This document shows positions 2,316 through 8,865 of a DNA stretch of 8,865 bases, one piece after another. The stretch is from an uncultured Pseudomonadota bacterium (GTDB lineage: Bacteria > Desulfobacterota_B > Binatia > UBA9968). Numbering within the stretch: position 1 is the first letter of the stretch; every line of letters starts with the position of its first letter. The DNA lies in the NCBI GenBank assembly GCA_946478635.1, contig CAMLCX010000177.1:1-8865 (forward strand), written 5' to 3'. The notes beneath the pieces are model-generated. The model had not been told where the DNA came from and did no database searches. It saw nothing but the letters and a program-made list of their open reading frames with translations. The position numbers and the translations under genes were made by a program.

Positions 2316-3452
2316 ATGTCCAAAGCCATGCTAGGCGAACGAAGAATGTGGAGCAAGTATTACACCTATGATGAGTGGATGGAGGCCCAGGGAATTCCCG
2401 TCTACCGCGGCTATTACATCGAGGACTTGCGCACATTACAGCTTGGCTGGTGGGATGCGCGCGAGTGCAACTCCGCGTTCATCCAACTCGTCGGTCAGGA
2501 AGGCGTCACTTCGGCGCGCGTGACGGAGATTCCTCCGGGCAAGACTCTGCCGCCGATCAAATTTGCTCTCGACGAGATCGTCTATGTCGTCGAAGGGCGC
2601 GGGCTCACAACCATCTGGTCCGGCGCGAAACGACCCAAGAAAACTTTCGAATGGCAAAAGCACAGCATGTTTCTCCTGCCGCATAACTACACGCACCAGT
2701 TTACCAACATGCAGGGCGACAAGCCGGTGCGGCTGCTGCATTACAACTACATGCCGCTCACGCTCTCCGGTGTGCGCGATGTGAATTTTGTCTTCGGCAA
2801 TGCCTACGAAGGAGCGGATATCCATAATGAGATGGATTTCTACTCCGAGGCGAAGATGGTTTCGCAGAACAATCTCGATGAGTCGTGGGGGCGGCGCGCC
2901 TACTGGTACGGCAATTTCTTCCCCGACATGCGCGCCTGGGACAAGCTCGATAGCAACGCCCGCCGCGGCGCCGGGGGCCGGAGCGTTTACATCCAGTTTC
3001 CTGATTCGGAGATGTCCTGCCACATGTCGGTCTTCGACGCGCGCTTGTACAAGAAAGCGCACCGGCACGGCCCGGGGCGCGTCATCGTGATCCCCGTCGG
3101 CGAGGGTTATTCGATCATGTGGGAGGAAGGTAAAGATAAAGTCGTCGTGCCGTGGCACGAGGCGAGCTGTTTCGTGCCGCCGAACAAATGGTTCCATCAG
3201 CACTTTAACGCCGGCGGCGACCCGGCGCGTTATCTCGCGCTCCATCCGCCGATGCAGTTCCACGGCCATGCCGAGAAGGTTGAAGACCGCGCCAAGGATC
3301 AGATCGAGTACGTCAACGAAGATGAATGGGTGCGCGAAAAATTCGAAGGCGAGCTCGCCAAAAAAGGTTTGACGTCATTGATGCCGTCCGAAGCGTACAC
3401 GGATCCGAGTTTTGAGTGGAACTGGTCGCCGTTTATCAAGAGCGCGAAGTGA
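2316..3452 (+). CDS. Bicupin-domain protein, metal-binding cupin in the second half
   Basis: This 378-residue, probably cytoplasmic protein has two cupin barrels. Cupin 1 spans about residues 63-147: V-T-x-I-P-P-G-K near 69-76, L-D-E-I-V-Y-V-V-E-G-R-G at 85-96 and P-H-N-Y-T-H-Q-F at 122-129. It lacks the canonical HxH of motif 1. Cupin 2 spans about 235-312 and keeps likely metal ligands: H249-R-H251 and H294 in W-F-H-Q-H-F. The second domain is therefore the likely active or metal site, and the first is structural or differently liganded. Length and two-domain layout recall gentisate-dioxygenase-like bicupins, and close relatives tend to be labelled generically as cupin proteins. The reaction is not known. 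The start is well supported by GGAGG (2301-2305), 10 bases before the ATG. The last 49 codons are duplicated at 4157-4307. Its 3' end converges on the minus-strand gene 26 bases away. Confidence 0.88.
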   Translation: MSKAMLGERRMWSKYYTYDEWMEAQGIPVYRGYYIEDLRTLQLGWWDARECNSAFIQLVGQEGVTSARVTEIPPGKTLPPIKFALDEIVYVVEGRGLTTIWSGAKRPKKTFEWQKHSMFLLPHNYTHQFTNMQGDKPVRLLHYNYMPLTLSGVRDVNFVFGNAYEGADIHNEMDFYSEAKMVSQNNLDESWGRRAYWYGNFFPDMRAWDKLDSNARRGAGGRSVYIQFPDSEMSCHMSVFDARLYKKAHRHGPGRVIVIPVGEGYSIMWEEGKDKVVVPWHEASCFVPPNKWFHQHFNAGGDPARYLALHPPMQFHGHAEKVEDRAKDQIEYVNEDEWVREKFEGELAKKGLTSLMPSEAYTDPSFEWNWSPFIKSAK

Positions 3453-3455
3453 GGC
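3302..3455 (+). repeat. Direct repeat, copy 1 (3' end of the bicupin gene)
   Basis: The 154 bases ending three bases past the bicupin stop recur at 4157-4310 in the same orientation with about nine differences (roughly 94% identity). The copies are 855 bases apart and enclose the minus-strand secreted-protein gene, so recombination between them could delete that gene. Confidence 0.95.
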
Positions 3456-3477: not shown

Positions 3478-3930
3478 CTACTCTCCGCCCTTTCCGTCGT
3501 CCTGACCCTGCTCCCGGCCGCGTTTTGTGTCCTCGTCGTAACGCTCGCGGCTCGCCTCCCTTAGGGCTTCCTCGTAACCTCGGGAGTATCCTTCGGAGTA
3601 TCCGCGTTCATACGCCGTTCCGACGCTCGGAGGAGGTGGTACAGAATACTGATTATTATAGTAGGGGTAAGGCGGCGGATACGCGTAAGCCGGGTAGGCG
3701 TAGCTCGGCATGTAGTAAGAACCGTAGTAGCCCGGCGGTAAAAATAAGGACGGTGGAAACAACGCCCTATTAACAAAGAACGAAGCCGGCCCGCGCCCAA
3801 AATGGCCGCCGACTATCGCGCCGGGGAAGAAGGGCCGAACAACGACACCGCCACCCCGCGGTCCCCAAGCGAAAGATGAGCTGGGAATCGCGATTATAGC
3901 AATCAGTGCAGTGATTCCGATAGCCTTCAT
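3478..3930 (-). CDS. Small secreted Gly/Pro/Tyr-rich protein
   Basis: This is a 150-residue exported protein of unknown role. The N-terminus is a clear signal peptide: K2, a hydrophobic core at residues 4-15, and a likely cut after S-S-S-F-A21. The mature part has a Gly-rich segment (22-48), then a Pro/Tyr-rich segment (about 60-100) with YAYPAYAYPPPYPYY. A charged C-terminal tail follows, with the short repeats ERGYSEGYSRGYEEA (108-122) and many Glu, Arg and Asp. Such proteins are usually periplasmic or surface-associated and resemble signal-peptide plus YXXG-tail proteins often called hypothetical. The start is supported by a strong Shine-Dalgarno sequence on the minus strand (GGAGG, complement of 3936-3940), five bases before the ATG. 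It stands alone, converging with the bicupin gene and lying between the two direct repeats. Confidence 0.75.
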   Translation of the reverse strand: MKAIGITALIAIIAIPSSSFAWGPRGGGVVVRPFFPGAIVGGHFGRGPASFFVNRALFPPSLFLPPGYYGSYYMPSYAYPAYAYPPPYPYYNNQYSVPPPPSVGTAYERGYSEGYSRGYEEALREASRERYDEDTKRGREQGQDDGKGGE

Positions 3931-4156: not shown

Positions 4157-4307
4157 GATCGAATACGTCAACGAAGACAAATGGGTGCGCGAAAAATTCG
4201 AAGGCGAGCTGGCCAAGAAAGGTTTGACGTCATTGATGCCGTCCGAAGCGTACACGGATCCGAGCTTTGAATGGAACTGGTCGCCGTTTATCAAGAGCGC
4301 GAAGTAG
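4157..4307 (+). pseudogene. Isolated 3' fragment of a bicupin gene
   Basis: The fragment matches bicupin residues 330-378 through the stop; only the C-terminal tail is present and neither cupin barrel. Of nine differences from the intact gene, six are synonymous, one changes Glu to Lys (the D-E-W to D-K-W position), and two lie in the stop codon (TGA against TAG). That pattern means most divergence accumulated while the sequence was still under protein-level selection. The source was therefore probably a once-complete paralog or homologous allele whose 5' part was lost, rather than a recent copy of the neighbour. A frame runs into it from about 3963, but the upstream 60 residues have no similarity to bicupin and there is no ribosome binding site, so I do not call a functional gene. 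Confidence 0.85.
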
Positions 4308-4310
4308 GGC
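4157..4310 (+). repeat. Direct repeat, copy 2 (partner of 3302-3455)
   Basis: This is the second copy of the 154-base repeat, in the same orientation. Similarity begins abruptly at GATCGA and ends at the GGC after the stop. Flanking bases on both sides are unrelated, so the junctions are sharp. Confidence 0.95.
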
Positions 4311-4500
4311 TGTTGCTGAAATACACGGTTACAAAGCTCCTGGACTCGGCAAAATAAAACAGAAGGCCTGGCGCTGAGCGGTTATGTGAACACTTCGATT
4401 TTCTCGAGCGTAATCGAAATCAATTTAGAACCAGATACAAGAGCCCGCTCGATGTCAGCCCATTCATGAGCCAGCACCTCGTAAAGAGCAGGTCTTGGCG
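4311..4500. other. No convincing gene; short minus-strand open frame
   Basis: No complete gene is visible. On the minus strand, a frame open from 4531 down to the TAA at 4382-4384 reads ...ALYEVLAHEWADIERALVSG... and ends IEVFT. It looks protein-like but has no ATG and no ribosome binding site. It could be a gene remnant overlapping antisense to the toxin-like remnant at 4501-4593, or chance. I cannot name a family. Confidence 0.3.
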
Positions 4501-4593
4501 TACTGTCTATCGGATCGCTTGGATGCGATCGTCATTTTGGAAGTCTTTAGAAAAGCGAGCAGAGGAATGCCCAAAGCGATTATCGAGGCGTGA
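4501..4593 (+). pseudogene. Remnant resembling the C-terminus of a Gp49/HigB-like toxin
   Basis: One plus-strand frame reads SDRLDAIVILEVFRKASRGM, then PKAIIEA and TGA at 4591-4593. This fits the C-terminal signature of phage Gp49-like/HigB toxins of the RelE/ParE superfamily (xAIVxLxxFxKKTxxTPxxxIExA). Only about 30 residues are recognisable. The upstream part is not toxin-like, has no start codon back to the TAG near 4426, and the RelE-fold core is missing. The stop falls inside the dispersed repeat that begins at 4590, so the family's usual downstream Arg-rich helix has been cut off. The call rests on a short motif recalled from family knowledge. Confidence 0.4.
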
Positions 4594-4741: not shown

Positions 4742-5059
4742 CTATCTGTTTTTTCGTCCATCTGCTCCGGTCGCTCCGGTCGCTCCAGTCGCGCCTGCCG
4801 CTCCGGTTGCACCGGCTGCTCCGGCTGCTCCAGTCGCACCGGGCGCTCCTTCTTGGCCAGGCTTGGCTTTTTCTCCCTCAGCCCCGGTCGCTCCAGTCGC
4901 ACCGGACACGCCTTCTTGTCCGGCTGGTCCTGCTGGCCCCGCCGGTCCGGCTGGCGCCGGCGCCGGCGGCGCTGCTGGCGGAAGCGGATTCTGCTGGCAG
5001 CCGGCAAGAGCCCCAACGAAGAGGGCTACGCCCGACCACAAAACAAGTTTCTTTCCCAT
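4742..5059 (-). CDS. Collagen-like (GXY-repeat) lipoprotein
   Basis: This 105-residue lipoprotein has a signal peptide (KK at 3-4, hydrophobic core 5-17) ending in the lipobox L-A-G-C21, so Cys21 should be lipidated and the protein anchored in a membrane of the envelope. A short Pro/Ala linker (22-37) precedes about 22 collagen-type triplets (38-103), mainly GPA, GAT and GAA. One triplet lacks Gly (A-K-P at 65-67). The chain ends three to five residues later, with no globular C-terminal domain. Bacterial collagen-like segments can form triple helices; here the repeat may act as a stalk or spacer. The start is strongly supported by GGAGGTGA on the minus strand (complement of 5066-5073), six bases before the ATG. 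It is monocistronic with its own terminator. The 9-base DNA repeats could change in number by slippage. Confidence 0.85.
4759..4950. repeat. Imperfect 9-base tandem repeats encoding collagen triplets
   Basis: On the plus strand, GGTCGCTCC, GGCTGCTCC and close variants recur in phase. They encode GAT/GAA/GPA triplets on the other strand. The run is interrupted near 4855-4880, where the GEKAKPGQE segment lies. Confidence 0.75.
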
Positions 5060-5511: not shown

Positions 5512-6006
5512 ATGAAAGAAAAAGAGCCATCCCTCAAGGTTGCCGACGAGGTGTGGATCGCGACCGCGTTGCTTCATCATGAGAATCCCAAGCGCGCGGA
5601 CTTTACGGTTTCAGAAATCGTCGAGAGAGCGCGCAAAGAAAACATCTCGGGCGCCCTGAGGGCGGGGGTGCAAGTGCATGCTTACCTTCATTGCGTTGCG
5701 AACCTTCCGCCCAATCCCGGCCGGTATAGGATGCTTTACGCAACCGGGAAGAACACGCGCCGGCTTTTTCGCGAGAGCGACGATTTCCATCCCGAGCGCC
5801 GGGGCGGCAAGATCACCCCTCAAAGAGAAAATATGCCCTCTCGATATAGGAAGTTTTTGGACTGGTATGCGGAGAAATTCGCCGGGAAGAAAAAGGGCGC
5901 CAAAGAATGCGACCCTATTCTTGCGCTTCGAGGACTCGGCAAGGAAATCTGGGTTGGCGAGGACGCCGATGAGTATGTGCGCCGGGTCCGTGGAGAATGG
6001 GAGTGA
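5512..6006 (+). CDS. Putative winged-helix antitoxin paired with a PIN toxin
   Basis: This 164-residue soluble protein is the first gene of a two-gene operon. Residues 11-87 look like a winged-helix fold: helix V14-W-I-A-T-A-L-L, F31-T-V-S-E-I as the helix before the turn, A51-G-V-Q-V-H-A-Y-L-H-C as a recognition-type helix, then the strand pair R71-Y-R-M-L-Y-A-T-G-K and T82-R-R-L-F as wing. A basic linker (118-131) leads to a C-terminal tail, D134-P-I-L-A-L-R-G-L-G-K-E-I-W and E150-D-A-D-E-Y-V-R-R, of the type that wraps a PIN toxin. It is not a VapB/AbrB, Phd or RHH protein by sequence. The antitoxin role is inferred from gene order, size, DNA-binding-like head and toxin-binding-like tail. 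AGAAGG (5501-5506) serves the ATG. It overlaps the toxin gene by 10 bases, so translation is coupled. Confidence 0.8.
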   Translation: MKEKEPSLKVADEVWIATALLHHENPKRADFTVSEIVERARKENISGALRAGVQVHAYLHCVANLPPNPGRYRMLYATGKNTRRLFRESDDFHPERRGGKITPQRENMPSRYRKFLDWYAEKFAGKKKGAKECDPILALRGLGKEIWVGEDADEYVRRVRGEWE

Positions 6007-6425
6007 GCCGCATCTTTTGGGACACGAACCTGTTCATCTATTTAGTGGAAGATCAGGGGGAATTATCGGAGCGGGTGGCGAGCTTGCGGACGCGCATGAT
6101 CGAAAGAAGCGACGATCTCTTCACATCTGCGCTGACGGTGGGCGAGATTTTGGTTAAACCGCTCGAAGCCGGCAATGAGATCCTCGCGCGCCGTTACGAA
6201 GCCACCCTGCGCCAGGGGGCGACGATCATTCCTTTCGATATCGAAGCTGCCCGGATTTATGCGGGTATTCGCAAGGATCGCACGATTCGGCCGCCGGATG
6301 CGATCCAGCTTGCGTGCGCGGCACAGGCACGCGTGGATCTATTCATCACCAATGACGAGCGGCTGAGCATGAAATCAATTTCACGGATCCAATTTGTCAG
6401 CTCTCTGCAGCGCGCCTTCTTGTGA
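5997..6425 (+). CDS. PIN-domain (VapC-like) ribonuclease toxin
   Basis: This 142-residue protein is the usual size of a VapC-type toxin. Acidic residues expected to bind metal are in place: D9 in F-W-D-T-N, E50 in S-A-L-T-V-G-E-I-L, D101 in R-P-P-D-A-I-Q-L-A and D120 in F-I-T-N-D-E-R-L. The family cleaves RNA, often tRNA or rRNA, with Mg or Mn; the target here is unknown. The ATG at 5997 lies inside the antitoxin gene. GTG at 6003, within GTGA overlapping the antitoxin TGA, is an alternative start with a better Shine-Dalgarno distance (GGAG 5992-5995) and would shorten the protein by two residues. All catalytic positions are intact, so the toxin is probably active. The gene ends a few bases before the remains of an unrelated gene. 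Confidence 0.88.
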   Translation: MGVSRIFWDTNLFIYLVEDQGELSERVASLRTRMIERSDDLFTSALTVGEILVKPLEAGNEILARRYEATLRQGATIIPFDIEAARIYAGIRKDRTIRPPDAIQLACAAQARVDLFITNDERLSMKSISRIQFVSSLQRAFL

Positions 6426-6435
6426 ATCATCGGAG

Positions 6436-6525
6436 CTGACTAACGACGTGTTCAAGGACGACCGCGGCCTTCTGTGGGTGACCGATAAGGAGCGCGGCTT
6501 CGACGTCATCGAATACAAAAATTGA
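6436..6525 (+). pseudogene. 3' remnant of a beta-propeller (LVIVD-like) gene
   Basis: The frame 6436-6525 reads LTNDVFKDDRGLLWVTDKER, then GFDVIEYKN and TGA. This matches the closing blade common in LVIVD/YncE-like propeller proteins (TNDVxxDDRGLIYVTDxxxGLDILEY). There is no start codon or ribosome binding site, and the rest of the protein is absent; the preceding bases belong to the PIN gene. It is thus the surviving 3' end of a gene whose upstream part was replaced or deleted, probably when the toxin-antitoxin cassette arrived. Identification is from a short motif. Confidence 0.55.
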
Positions 6526-6766
6526 ACGCGCGCTCAAGGACGGCTTCGCTTTCGTTCGTGAAGGTTGAACGCACGACAGACTGTGAACGTCTGAACGTGT
6601 GAGCGCTAGACCATCAAACCACTCAAACCGAGAATGCCGTCTGGCTTTCCACGCGAGGTTGCGCGCCGATATGCGGGACGCCGATCTTGATTCCGCCGGT
6701 GAGGCGATTCAATAACGAAGAAAGTCGAGTTGTAAATGCCTGACCCTCGTGCCTTCCCCCTTGATC
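6526..6766. other. Intergenic stretch without a recognisable gene
   Basis: Apart from the dispersed repeat at 6558-6612, I find nothing assignable. A minus-strand frame ending at TGA (complement of 6623-6625) reads ...RLTGGIKIGVPHIGAQPRVE.... It could be another gene-end remnant, but it has no start and I cannot match it to a family. Confidence 0.4.
6558..6612 (+). repeat. Dispersed about 54-bp repeat, copy B
   Basis: This is the partner of 4590-4643, in the same orientation. Like copy A, it lies just downstream of a truncated gene end: 33 bases past the propeller remnant's stop, compared with direct overlap for the toxin remnant. Confidence 0.7.
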
Positions 6767-6803
6767 TCTGAAGCGGTGCGTCGCAGTCTTGATGCGACGA
6801 TGT
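6767..6803 (+). repeat. 37-bp direct repeat left of the AbiE module
   Basis: It begins TCTGAAGCGGTGCGTCGCAG and ends GACGATGT. It matches 8829-8865 at 35 of 37 bases, 2062 bases away, same orientation. It contains the hairpin CGTCGCA (6779-6785) with TGCGACG (6793-6799). It may be an attachment or insertion-site duplication. Confidence 0.85.
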
Positions 6804-6864
6804 CTGGTGTCGAGGACTTGGGGCCGGTTGAGCTAAATGATGAGCGTCGTCCATTTATCTCTCG

Positions 6865-6883
6865 TGTCCACGGTTTGTGGACA
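6865..6883. promoter_or_regulatory. Operator-like inverted repeat 1 of the AbiE-like operon
   Basis: TGTCCAC, five bases, GTGGACA form a perfect 7-bp palindrome. A lone GTCCA half-site lies at 6849-6853. It is the same motif and spacing as the site at 6946-6964, 81 bases downstream centre to centre. It is a likely binding site for the AbiEi-like regulator, because AbiEi proteins are known to bind paired inverted repeats in their own promoter. Confidence 0.75.
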
Positions 6884-6945
6884 TTAAGAACATTTGTAAA
6901 TTATCAATTTAATGTGGTTTTATTAATGAGTACATTATTGACTTT

Positions 6946-6964
6946 TGTCCATGCTTCGTGGACA
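6946..6964. promoter_or_regulatory. Operator-like inverted repeat 2 of the AbiE-like operon
   Basis: TGTCCAT, GCTTC, GTGGACA: one mismatch from a perfect palindrome and otherwise the same as operator 1. It lies just before TATAAT (6967-6972) and the ATG at 6975, so a bound repressor would cover the promoter and translation start region. A further TGGACA half-site spans the start codon (6976-6981). Confidence 0.75.
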
Positions 6965-6966
6965 CT

Positions 6967-6972
6967 TATAAT
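6967..6972 (+). promoter_or_regulatory. Perfect TATAAT box directly before the AbiEi-like start codon
   Basis: TATAAT is separated by 16 bases from TTGTCC (6945-6950), a four-of-six -35 inside operator 2. Transcription from it would begin at or after the ATG at 6975. Either this box is not the promoter for that start, or an alternative such as TTGACT (6938-6943) with a poor -10 near 6961 gives a nearly leaderless transcript. No ribosome binding site is seen before the ATG. Confidence 0.4.
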
Positions 6973-6974
6973 AA

Positions 6975-7988
6975 ATGGACAAGCTAGATCGGCAGAATTT
7001 GCTGGAGGCCGCAATAATCACTGCGCAACAGCTCGGTCTCGGCATGGAAGTGGTACAGCTCGAGCCCCAACTTGGTGCGGCGCGGGCAGACGCACTCGTT
7101 CGCGTCCGCTACGACGACCAAGAAGTTTTATACGCAGCAGAAGTTAAGCGTGAGATTCGTCCCGCGATGTTAGGAGCAGTAACACAACAGCTGGCGCGTC
7201 TGGGACAGCCGGCGTTGCTTGTGACGAATTACGTAACGCCGCCGCTTGCAGACGCATTTAAGGAACGAGGTATTGCCTTTCTCGACGCGGCGGGCAACGC
7301 GTACCTAAAGCATCCGCCGTTACTTATATGGGTGAAGGGTCAAAGACCACAAAAACTAATTACAGCGAACGTGACAACACGCACGTTCAACCCAAGCGGA
7401 CTTCAGGTGATCTTTCCGCTCCTTTGTCATCCGGAGTGGGCTGATCGTCCATATCGCGAAATTGCCCAAATGGCCACTGTAGCCCATGGCACCGTTGGCT
7501 GGGTGCTAGCAGAATTACCGAAGCTAGGATTTATGGCTGAGGTCGGCGGAAAGCGCCGCCTGCTCCAACCCGAGCGGCTCCTTCAACAGTGGGTAGAAGC
7601 CTACGCGCGCACTCTCCGACCGAGATTGTTGCTCGGTCGCTTTCACGCGGATCAGTTGGATTGGTATAAGACACTCGATCCCGGCAAATATGGCTACGTC
7701 TTAGGCGGTGAGGCTGCGGCGGCGCGGCTAACACAAAATTTACGTCCGGGCACACTTACGCTTTACGGTCAGAAGGTCGAACCTCGATTTATACTTGACC
7801 AGCGGCTCCGGCCCGATCCGCAAGGCACGGTTGAGATCCTCAGGCGTTTCTGGAAATTCGATTACGTCGATCCATTGCTAACCCCGCTTCCGTTAATCTA
7901 CGCGGATCTTTTGGCAATCGGAGATGCGCGTTGTCTGGAGACCGCCAAGCTCATCTATGGTGATATCATCGCTCGATTTGGCCGCTAA
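6975..7988 (+). CDS. AbiEi-family type IV antitoxin / transcriptional regulator
   Basis: This 337-residue protein is first in a two-gene operon with an AbiEii-like toxin. A central winged helix (about 140-205) contains Y160-R-E-I-A-Q-M-A-T-V-A-H-G-T-V-G-W-V-L as helix-turn-helix and L181-P-K-L-G-F then G192-K-R-R-L-L as wing. The C-terminal half carries family-typical blocks: R215-P-R-L-L-L-G-R-F, G244-G-E-A-A-A-A-R-L-T, L278-R-P-D-P-Q-G and L308-I-Y-A-D-L-L-A-I-G-D. These fit the AbiEi_2 type antitoxin. In type IV systems the antitoxin represses the operon and counteracts the toxin without forming a stable complex. The N-terminal domain has D39, E56-V-K58 and a Gln-bearing helix near 71, as in PD-(D/E)XK folds. 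The ATG at 6975 gives a family-like N-terminus. It overlaps the toxin gene by 32 bases. Confidence 0.85.
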   Translation: MDKLDRQNLLEAAIITAQQLGLGMEVVQLEPQLGAARADALVRVRYDDQEVLYAAEVKREIRPAMLGAVTQQLARLGQPALLVTNYVTPPLADAFKERGIAFLDAAGNAYLKHPPLLIWVKGQRPQKLITANVTTRTFNPSGLQVIFPLLCHPEWADRPYREIAQMATVAHGTVGWVLAELPKLGFMAEVGGKRRLLQPERLLQQWVEAYARTLRPRLLLGRFHADQLDWYKTLDPGKYGYVLGGEAAAARLTQNLRPGTLTLYGQKVEPRFILDQRLRPDPQGTVEILRRFWKFDYVDPLLTPLPLIYADLLAIGDARCLETAKLIYGDIIARFGR

Positions 7989-8823
7989 GAGCGAACTGAC
8001 ATTCCTGGCGGAATTGGTTGCAGATCTTCGTGCTGCGGCGCCTGCTTGGAAGCCGCTTCTCGCCGGAGCGATGGCGAGGGACCTACTCCTCTATTACAGC
8101 CATAACATTCCCGTGATTCGGGCTACGGAGGATATCGACCTGGGATTTGCCGTAGCCGACTGGGATGATTTTGCCGCTCTGCGGGCTGCGTTACTTGCGT
8201 CCACTCATTTCGAGGCCCACGGTTCATTGGTCCACAGATTTTCTCATCGACGGGTTCGCCGGATTGACCTCATCCCATTTGGCGGATTGGAGCGGCCCGA
8301 CGGTTCCATAGCATGGCCGCCACAGGGCGACGAAGTGATGACAGTCGCCGGCTATCGCGAGGCAATGGCATCAGCTATCGACGTAATGCTCGCGGACGGC
8401 CAGCGAACACTGGTCGTATCGTTGCCAATGCTCGCCATATTAAAAGTGATTGCATGGTCCGAGCGGCACACCATGGCACCACGTAAAGATGCGGCAGATT
8501 TAGGCTTGATCCTCAAGAGCTACCTCGACGCCGGCAATCAACAGCGACTGTATGATGAAGCGTCGCACCTGTTAGACGATAGTAATTTTGACTACGAGCG
8601 GGCAGGCGCTTGGCTTGCGGGCCTCGATGCGGCTGCGGTTCTCCGAAAGGATACCGCCGGGCAGACGCACTTGCATCAGATGATTACCACGATCCTCACC
8701 AAAGAAATCGACCCGGACGGACCGCTAAGACTACTAGGAGAATTGGGCGGCGGCGATGCCGAAAAAACACGCCTTCTACTCGCAGCTTTTCTCCATGGAT
8801 TTAACGGCGAACAAACACCTTAA
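7957..8823 (+). CDS. AbiEii-like nucleotidyltransferase toxin
   Basis: This protein has 288 residues from the ATG at 7957; an earlier ATG at 7924 would give 299 but a 65-base overlap with the previous gene. Nucleotidyltransferase motifs, numbered from 7957: G37-A-M-A-R-D in the glycine-containing motif, the acidic pair D59-x-D61 in A-T-E-D-I-D-L-G, a third acidic residue D104 in R-R-I-D-L-I-P-F-G, and later I-L-K-V-I-A-W-S-E-R and R-K-D-A-A-D-L, typical of AbiEii/AbiGii-like proteins. Known relatives transfer nucleotides to tRNA acceptor ends, stopping growth and giving phage abortive infection; the substrate of this one is unknown. No clear Shine-Dalgarno sequence lies before 7957, as expected for coupled translation. 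The key acidic residues are intact. No terminator is visible before the direct repeat that follows five bases after the stop. Confidence 0.82.
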   Translation: MVISSLDLAAKSELTFLAELVADLRAAAPAWKPLLAGAMARDLLLYYSHNIPVIRATEDIDLGFAVADWDDFAALRAALLASTHFEAHGSLVHRFSHRRVRRIDLIPFGGLERPDGSIAWPPQGDEVMTVAGYREAMASAIDVMLADGQRTLVVSLPMLAILKVIAWSERHTMAPRKDAADLGLILKSYLDAGNQQRLYDEASHLLDDSNFDYERAGAWLAGLDAAAVLRKDTAGQTHLHQMITTILTKEIDPDGPLRLLGELGGGDAEKTRLLLAAFLHGFNGEQTP

Positions 8824-8828
8824 TATTT

Positions 8829-8865
8829 TCTGAAGCGGTGCGTCGAAGTCTGGATGCGACGATGT
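8829..8865 (+). repeat. 37-bp direct repeat right of the AbiE module (runs to window end)
   Basis: It matches 6767-6803 at 35 of 37 bases, with one change in each half. It starts five bases after the toxin stop codon. The window ends at its last visible base, so its true right boundary is unknown. Confidence 0.85.

Follow-up and report, generated by a model that had tools for sequence, protein, structure and literature searches.

The window analyzed in this study is the 8,865-nucleotide stretch at positions 1 to 8,865 of contig CAMLCX010000177.1 of an uncultured Pseudomonadota bacterium (GTDB lineage Binatia; UBA9968). Its right-hand end contains an AbiE toxin-antitoxin (TA) operon enclosed by two direct copies of a piece of a cyclase gene, and this unit and its counterparts in related genomes (designated G, with loci designated L and contigs designated C) are the subject of the analysis. 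The features of the unit are as follows (aa, amino acids).

6760..6837, plus strand: left copy, a cyclase-gene piece, 84-85% identical over 77-78 bp to cyclase genes of G018, G019 and G026.
6865..6883: palindrome 1, TGTCCACggtttGTGGACA, putative AbiEi operator, 14 of 18 positions symmetric.
6946..6964: palindrome 2, TGTCCATgcttcGTGGACA, putative AbiEi operator, 14 of 18 positions symmetric.
6975..7988, plus strand: abiEi, antitoxin/regulator of 337 aa (PF09952, E 3.4e-37), with relatives up to 94% identical.
7957..8823, plus strand: abiEii, nucleotidyltransferase toxin of 288 aa (PF08843, E 4e-6), overlapping the abiEi end.
8829..8865, plus strand: right copy of the cyclase piece, a direct repeat of 6767-6803, cut by the window end.

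The sequence identifies the unit as a self-contained TA operon of the AbiE (type IV) kind. The two genes overlap on the same strand in the AbiE order, with PF09952 and PF08843 matches above the cut-off; the abiEii start was taken at 7957, and note that the Pfam scan of this gene ran from 7966. AbiEii has 443 relatives at E <= 0.001 (7997 candidates scored). PADLOC recognized the toxin at E 0.04 only, NCBIfam gave no match at E <= 1 for either AbiEi or AbiEii, and a plasmid search returned 34 records, every one below 60% identity. A viral origin was considered and rejected, as 76 IMG/VR stretches matched a peptide pattern and none of them encodes an AbiEi relative. In the AbiE type IV system as outlined in the portion of PMC3985639 drawn on here, AbiEi is an antitoxin and repressor, AbiEii is a nucleotidyltransferase, and the promoter carries paired palindromes. 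The window's operon, known from sequence alone, resembles what is outlined there in having the same two genes and paired palindromes, a type IV trait, in its promoter region; it differs in belonging to a distant lineage and in its different operator-like palindromes. By analogy with that system, the two palindromes may serve as AbiEi operators.

The repeat copies at 6767-6803 and 8829-8865 are identical at 35/37 positions with a spacing of 2062 bp, and about 1e-11 such pairs would be expected by chance in a window-sized sequence with equal base frequencies. Re-analysis of the window bore out the original prediction in that a 35/37 direct repeat surrounds a complete abiEi-abiEii operon, that the right copy starts five bases past the abiEii stop, and that both differences between the copies are synonymous third positions. 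The repeat length of 37 bp holds as a minimum and not as the full size, because the right copy reaches the window end at 8865. Between the copies we found abiEi and abiEii only, with no transposase and no integrase.

The parent gene of the repeat was traced by a DNA search of 35 genomes belonging to the order of G001, a relative described below. Window positions 6760-6837 (78 bp) had one match each in three of the 35 genomes (G018, G019 and G026), at 84-85%, and every match was close to the end of a gene for a class III adenylate/guanylate cyclase. The G018 gene was recognized by PF00211 (E 1.3e-26); it has a stop codon in its 5' part, which forms a separate piece, and G019 and G026 have a long open frame. 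The G019 protein has the C-terminus LISEAVRRSLDAAMSGVEDLGPVPLKGQPNPARIFKVA. Since the left copy of the window translates as LISEAVRRSLDATMSGVEDLGPVEL, which matches the cyclase, and then departs from it before the gene's stop, the left copy is an internal piece of the cyclase 3' part, lacking the first part of the gene and its last 13 codons. The right copy begins seven bases further into the cyclase gene than the left copy and then exits the window, so that the simplest reading is a predicted duplicated core of 71 bp, 6767-6837. The suggestion that the two copies might share a coding-gene piece, read in the frame SEAVRRSLDATM, was therefore right, as this frame corresponds to the C-terminal region of a class III cyclase.

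The cyclase piece was single on its contig in G018, G019 and G026 (for G026, 20 of 23.8 kb was fetched), and none of the three genomes gave an AbiEi match. Note that these single-copy homologues without the module are from species other than that of the window, and their flanks are unmatched. An interspersed element found at many unrelated places was considered as the nature of the repeat and was rejected, as DNA similarity tied the repeat to one gene, the cyclase, once each in the three genomes. Degenerate patterns of the repeat had no match in GTDB genomes or IMG/VR, being too strict for even the cyclase homologues; the homologues carry an Ala codon at a position where the patterns call for Thr, and these nulls therefore say little about absence. 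The internal hairpin of the repeat, which had been proposed as a recombinase site, did not hold up: its arms are paired at 7/7 positions in the left copy, 6/7 in the right copy and 4/7 in each of the three homologues, indicating that no recombinase site is conserved there.

We compared 50 genome loci with AbiEi relatives, and the closest was L001 in G001, a Deltaproteobacteria metagenome-assembled genome (MAG), whose AbiEi is 88% identical to that of the window. The DNA shared between the window and L001 is the module only (window 6866-8811), and a palindrome similar to palindrome 2 is present at 7978-7996 of L001. At this locus, the module comes after a molybdopterin oxidoreductase gene, and behind the module the 3' end of that gene occurs again (231 bp, 93%); a third copy of the 3' end (153 bp, 82%) lies past the next gene. 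In genome G025, the molybdopterin oxidoreductase gene is 91% identical over 1755 bp, its 3' end has one match genome-wide, another open reading frame (ORF) lies 50 bp behind it, and AbiEi gave no match in that genome. Upstream of the second abiE of G001 (L096, contig C428) is a 286-bp sequence that copies, at 93%, the 5' end of the next gene downstream. Direct repeats of host sequence around the module thus measure at least 37 bp in the window (with 78 bp of the parent gene on the left), 231 bp in L001 and 286 bp in L096. Other inserts between local direct repeats in G001 include Gp49/HTH (HigBA-like), DUF4258 and DUF6036 genes (one Gp49 match was below the curated cut-off), and the arrangement recurs in this relative at other genes and with other TA types.

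The repeats are direct, of variable length and different at each locus, with the straddling ones spanning 62 to 338 bp. No shared junction motif, termini or inverted repeats were seen by eye at 16 units, and several left ends are G+C-rich. Of the original prediction, one part is supported, an insertion unit without integrase or transposase: in G001 a different gene supplies the pieces that bound the homologous module, and the repeat is single in three genomes without abiE. The other part, an attL/attR pair or a hairpin recombinase site, is unsupported because the repeat is a piece of an ordinary protein gene, the hairpin is unconserved and the enclosing sequence varies by locus.

We then counted how often TA genes are straddled by such repeats. 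The rule for G001 (a direct repeat of 60-1000 bp at E <= 1e-6, up to 2.5 kb on each side and at least 500 bp of flank) was set before the regions were fetched, although the idea arose from contigs of the same genome. All 17 places found with PIN genes were fetched, 14 of them with enough flank, and the control consisted of 40 of the 67 response-regulator matches (top of the list, one per contig, PIN-bearing contigs excluded), all 40 usable. PIN genes were straddled at 7/14 places and response regulators at 3/40 (Fisher one-sided P=0.0015). Because the idea came from G001's own contigs, the count was repeated without the two PIN contigs seen beforehand, which gave 5/12 (P=0.011). The repeats at the three straddled response regulators are 65-81% identical, up to 780 bp long and paralogue-like. 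Inverted straddling repeats were found in neither set (0 and 0), and the local repeats on 56 other G001 contigs (516 kb) were 36 direct and 0 inverted. Regions with any direct repeat numbered 11/17 for PIN genes, 9/40 for response regulators and 17/56 for the other contigs.

For abiE across bacteria, straddling direct repeats (<= 1.5 kb) were found at 4 of the 47 usable loci (of 50) versus 52/4294 control intervals, and inverted ones at 0/47 versus 10/4346; the control intervals came from the same loci and are not independent, so that no P-value is attached. At L005 and L049, the repeats are more than 1.5 kb from the abiE module and are outside the count of four. The straddling habit is strong in G001, the nearest relative found of the window, and is not universal.

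Taken together, the repeat-module structure is solid, and we consider it fairly probable that the AbiE operon was inserted beside the cyclase fragment by host recombination, leaving a copy of the gene piece on each side. We propose that TA modules in these genomes tend to enter by homology-anchored insertion, which would leave two copies of a host-gene piece and require no recombinase of their own, a mode similar to the restriction-modification insertions with long target duplication discussed below. Specifically, incoming DNA would carry both the module and a segment with homology to a host gene, and this segment would pair with the host gene through RecA-type recombination. The other end would be joined illegitimately, or a circle would integrate by single crossover, and in either case the module would end up flanked by two direct copies of the gene piece that are not identical. 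Insertions at gene ends would be retained by selection, since they leave one gene copy intact. With direct repeats on both sides, the segment would be easily deleted, a tendency that the TA module may counteract because its loss is harmful.

The ancestry evidence for a recombination route is weak and comes from one sister locus. Silent changes account for 6/7 changed codons in the window's cupin pair (described below), 12/16 in L001 and 2/2 in the cyclase pair. Within the 231 positions of L001, the dead fragment differs from the G025 allele at 12 and the living copy at 20, with 17 differences between both copies, and the fragment is the shorter branch. Since the differences are mostly silent and the dead fragment is nearer to the G025 allele than the living copy is, two alleles joined by recombination would be moderately favored over duplication followed by drift.

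Several observations weigh against this account. At the 17 differing sites of L001, G025 matches the fragment 12 times and the intact copy four times, an asymmetry that is weak (P about 0.04 one-sided, by hand estimate); the copy tree leaves the grouping unsettled (bootstrap 55), and the ancestry signal of the cupin copies is mixed. At L150, a PIN gene, just 8 of the 13 differences between the copies are at third positions, and the L094 fragment shows a one-base gap and visible non-silent changes. The unit's right end is beyond the window, with its own junction and an own-species empty site out of view, and the left copy is itself a fragment, so that one insertion alone would be insufficient for this site. 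No TA module was recognized in L127, L115 or the window's cupin insert. In addition, the straddling excess was weaker beyond G001: PIN genes were straddled at 2/17 usable loci and response regulators at 0/23 (P=0.17). This set comprised 28 of 30 PIN loci (L223, from G001, and L224 were left out) and 30 response-regulator loci (one from G001), and the gene was assumed to occupy the stretch from base 1501 to the point 1500 bases short of the end. Larger PIN regions outside G001 were straddled at 2/18 (19 tested, 18 usable), with 0/12 for the regions of two single-contig genomes. Three PIN loci are common to both non-G001 sets, and the distinct total for other genomes of the order is 4/32. Finally, response regulators are a core-like control from which those on PIN contigs were excluded, and the density of local direct repeats as such is similar around PIN genes (28 in 114 kb) and response regulators (73 in 271 kb, of which a single locus holds 60).

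Target-site duplication is an explanation that we regard as possible and rather unlikely. In a transposition-like event, a long staggered cut (71 bp or more) would have duplicated the target, and the copies would have drifted later. The direct orientation and the duplicated core on both sides agree with such an event, and the same terms are used for the long target duplication of restriction-modification (R-M) systems. According to the part of PMC3874152 used here, the target duplications that accompany insertion of some R-M systems are long, variable and on the order of 100 bp; R-M insertion with a long target duplication is also described in the part of PMC3031569 that we used, and the TA review PMC2654758, in the section consulted, cites the original R-M paper. 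The window's arrangement resembles these insertions in that an addiction-type module without its own transposase or integrase is surrounded by direct host-sequence repeats of variable length of about 100 bp. Nobusato 2000 and Furuta 2010 are said to be the original papers on this R-M long target duplication. The present case differs in that the module is a TA operon, that one genome shows several TA types, and that the pairs counted differ mainly at silent sites, which hints at two alleles rather than plain duplication. A staggered cut is further disfavored by the lack of common termini or inverted repeats by eye among the 16 units, by repeat lengths ranging from 62 to 338 bp, and by the mostly silent differences in the three pairs counted even though one copy is dead. 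The position of the L001 fragment on the shorter branch is also opposite to what dead-copy drift would give.

We find it improbable that a tandem gene duplication came first and that the TA module then replaced the 5' part of the second copy, a form of paralogue-pair decay. Such a history would account for the direct orientation, the silent differences and the 3'-end pieces, and tandem paralogues do exist, as exemplified by two EamA genes in the window. However, G025 has one match for the molybdopterin oxidoreductase 3' end and the cyclase piece is single on three related contigs; moreover, a 5'-end piece was also found (L096), and close tandem paralogues would be needed at many unrelated genes.

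Site-specific integration, in which the repeat would be the attL/attR pair of an integrase-mobilized element, is very unlikely here. Gene 3' ends are common integrase targets, and at the distant abiE locus L033 the repeat (7863-8035 / 10275-10448) reads by eye as holding the 3' part of tRNA-Phe. On the other hand, abiEi and abiEii are alone between the window's copies with no integrase there, the window and L001 have different target genes, and the hairpin is unconserved. As a separate observation, the flanking repeat of L033 is more like a classical integrase island site. An integron cassette (attC) was also considered, for the repeats of L040 and L033, and was set aside since the window's pieces come from three protein genes (cupin, LVIVD and cyclase); note that no attC model was run.

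An assembly artefact or chance repeat hardly deserves credence: contigs commonly break off at repeats and the window ends within the right copy, and most relatives used are MAGs, but the chance expectation is minute, the copies differ synonymously, and straddled abiE loci are also present in L032 (a record titled complete genome) and L033 (a 482-kb contig).

Homology-anchored insertion by host recombination, the route that we favor, has a parallel outside TA systems. Homology-facilitated illegitimate recombination was proposed for effector-immunity arrays in Vibrio type VI secretion system (T6SS) clusters, as set out in the part of PMC5361080 used here. As far as that description goes, the likeness lies in toxin-linked modules being inserted serially at a homologous anchor with older 3' ends pushed downstream; the anchor is one kind of locus there and unrelated genes here, and the mechanism is a proposal in both cases. 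In G001, at L111 (contig C48, 7962-13718), the 3' end of an ABC substrate-binding gene (PF04392) occurs five or six times, twice as the end of a complete gene, and the copies are dispersed among other genes including a PIN pair, which looks like a serial insertion array. We tentatively raise the idea, which is doubtful at present, that host-gene ends might serve TA modules of this lineage as portable homology arms, a TA operon with a borrowed end acting as a recombinase-free cassette; it would enter cells, recombine at that gene or any paralogue and build serial arrays, such as the three 3'-end copies in L001 and the five or six in contig C48, with addiction protecting the unstable direct-repeat unit.

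According to the part of PMC2884548 considered here, 10-18% of the small variable segments in bacterial genomes are repeat-flanked, so that finding direct repeats at such segments is not unusual as such. A limited literature search noticed no published report of such insertion for TA modules, AbiE included. It has long been asked how TA modules that lack a mobile element come to occupy so many chromosomal sites. An enrichment of TA genes between long direct host-gene repeats, if real, would make the scars readable genome-wide and empty sites predictable. In addition, if the proposal is true, stabilization of unstable direct-repeat insertions by addiction would be testable by counting and by deletion-rate assays, and a mode proposed for R-M systems would extend to TA systems.

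The remaining part of the window contains further gene pieces and inserts, as listed below.

2316..3452, plus strand: complete cupin-domain (dioxygenase-like) gene, 93% aa identity to G001; Pfam cupin scores just under the curated cut-offs.
4157..4310, plus strand: duplicate of the cupin gene's final 154 bp, 94-95% identical to 3302-3455.
5512..6425, plus strand: second TA-like operon, a 164-aa ORF and a PIN-domain protein.
5997..6425, plus strand: the PIN-domain protein, a VapC-like toxin (PF01850, E 2.9e-15).
6435..6525, plus strand: last 91 bp, including the stop, of an LVIVD-repeat protein gene, an orphan 3' end about 10 bp past the PIN gene stop.

The cupin 3'-end copies are separated by a 0.7-kb insert with a minus-strand ORF at 3478-3930 (150 aa) that had no Pfam match. 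In G001, a Fic/DUF4172 gene lies behind the same cupin gene, and the cupin 3' end is single on that contig. The 164-aa ORF of the second TA-like operon also had no Pfam match, and we infer from its position that it is a putative antitoxin. The LVIVD-gene end is 84-92% identical to sequences in G001, G016, G034, G035, G019 and G020 and 78% identical to one in G023; the G001 homologue matches PF08309, and the remainder of the gene had no DNA match within the window.

Four minor observations concern other parts of the window. A segment of about 80 bp at 6667-6746 is 75-76% alike in G020, G021 and G023, and we presume that it may be a repetitive extragenic palindromic (REP)-like element. Positions 4494-4592 match places in G033 and in contig C232 of G001 at 78-80%. 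On the minus strand, 4742-5059 encodes a short protein with collagen-like triplet repeats (PF01391) and, by eye, a lipoprotein-like start. The two EamA transporter genes (PF00892) lie in tandem at 291-2039 and are 75% identical over one 56-base stretch.

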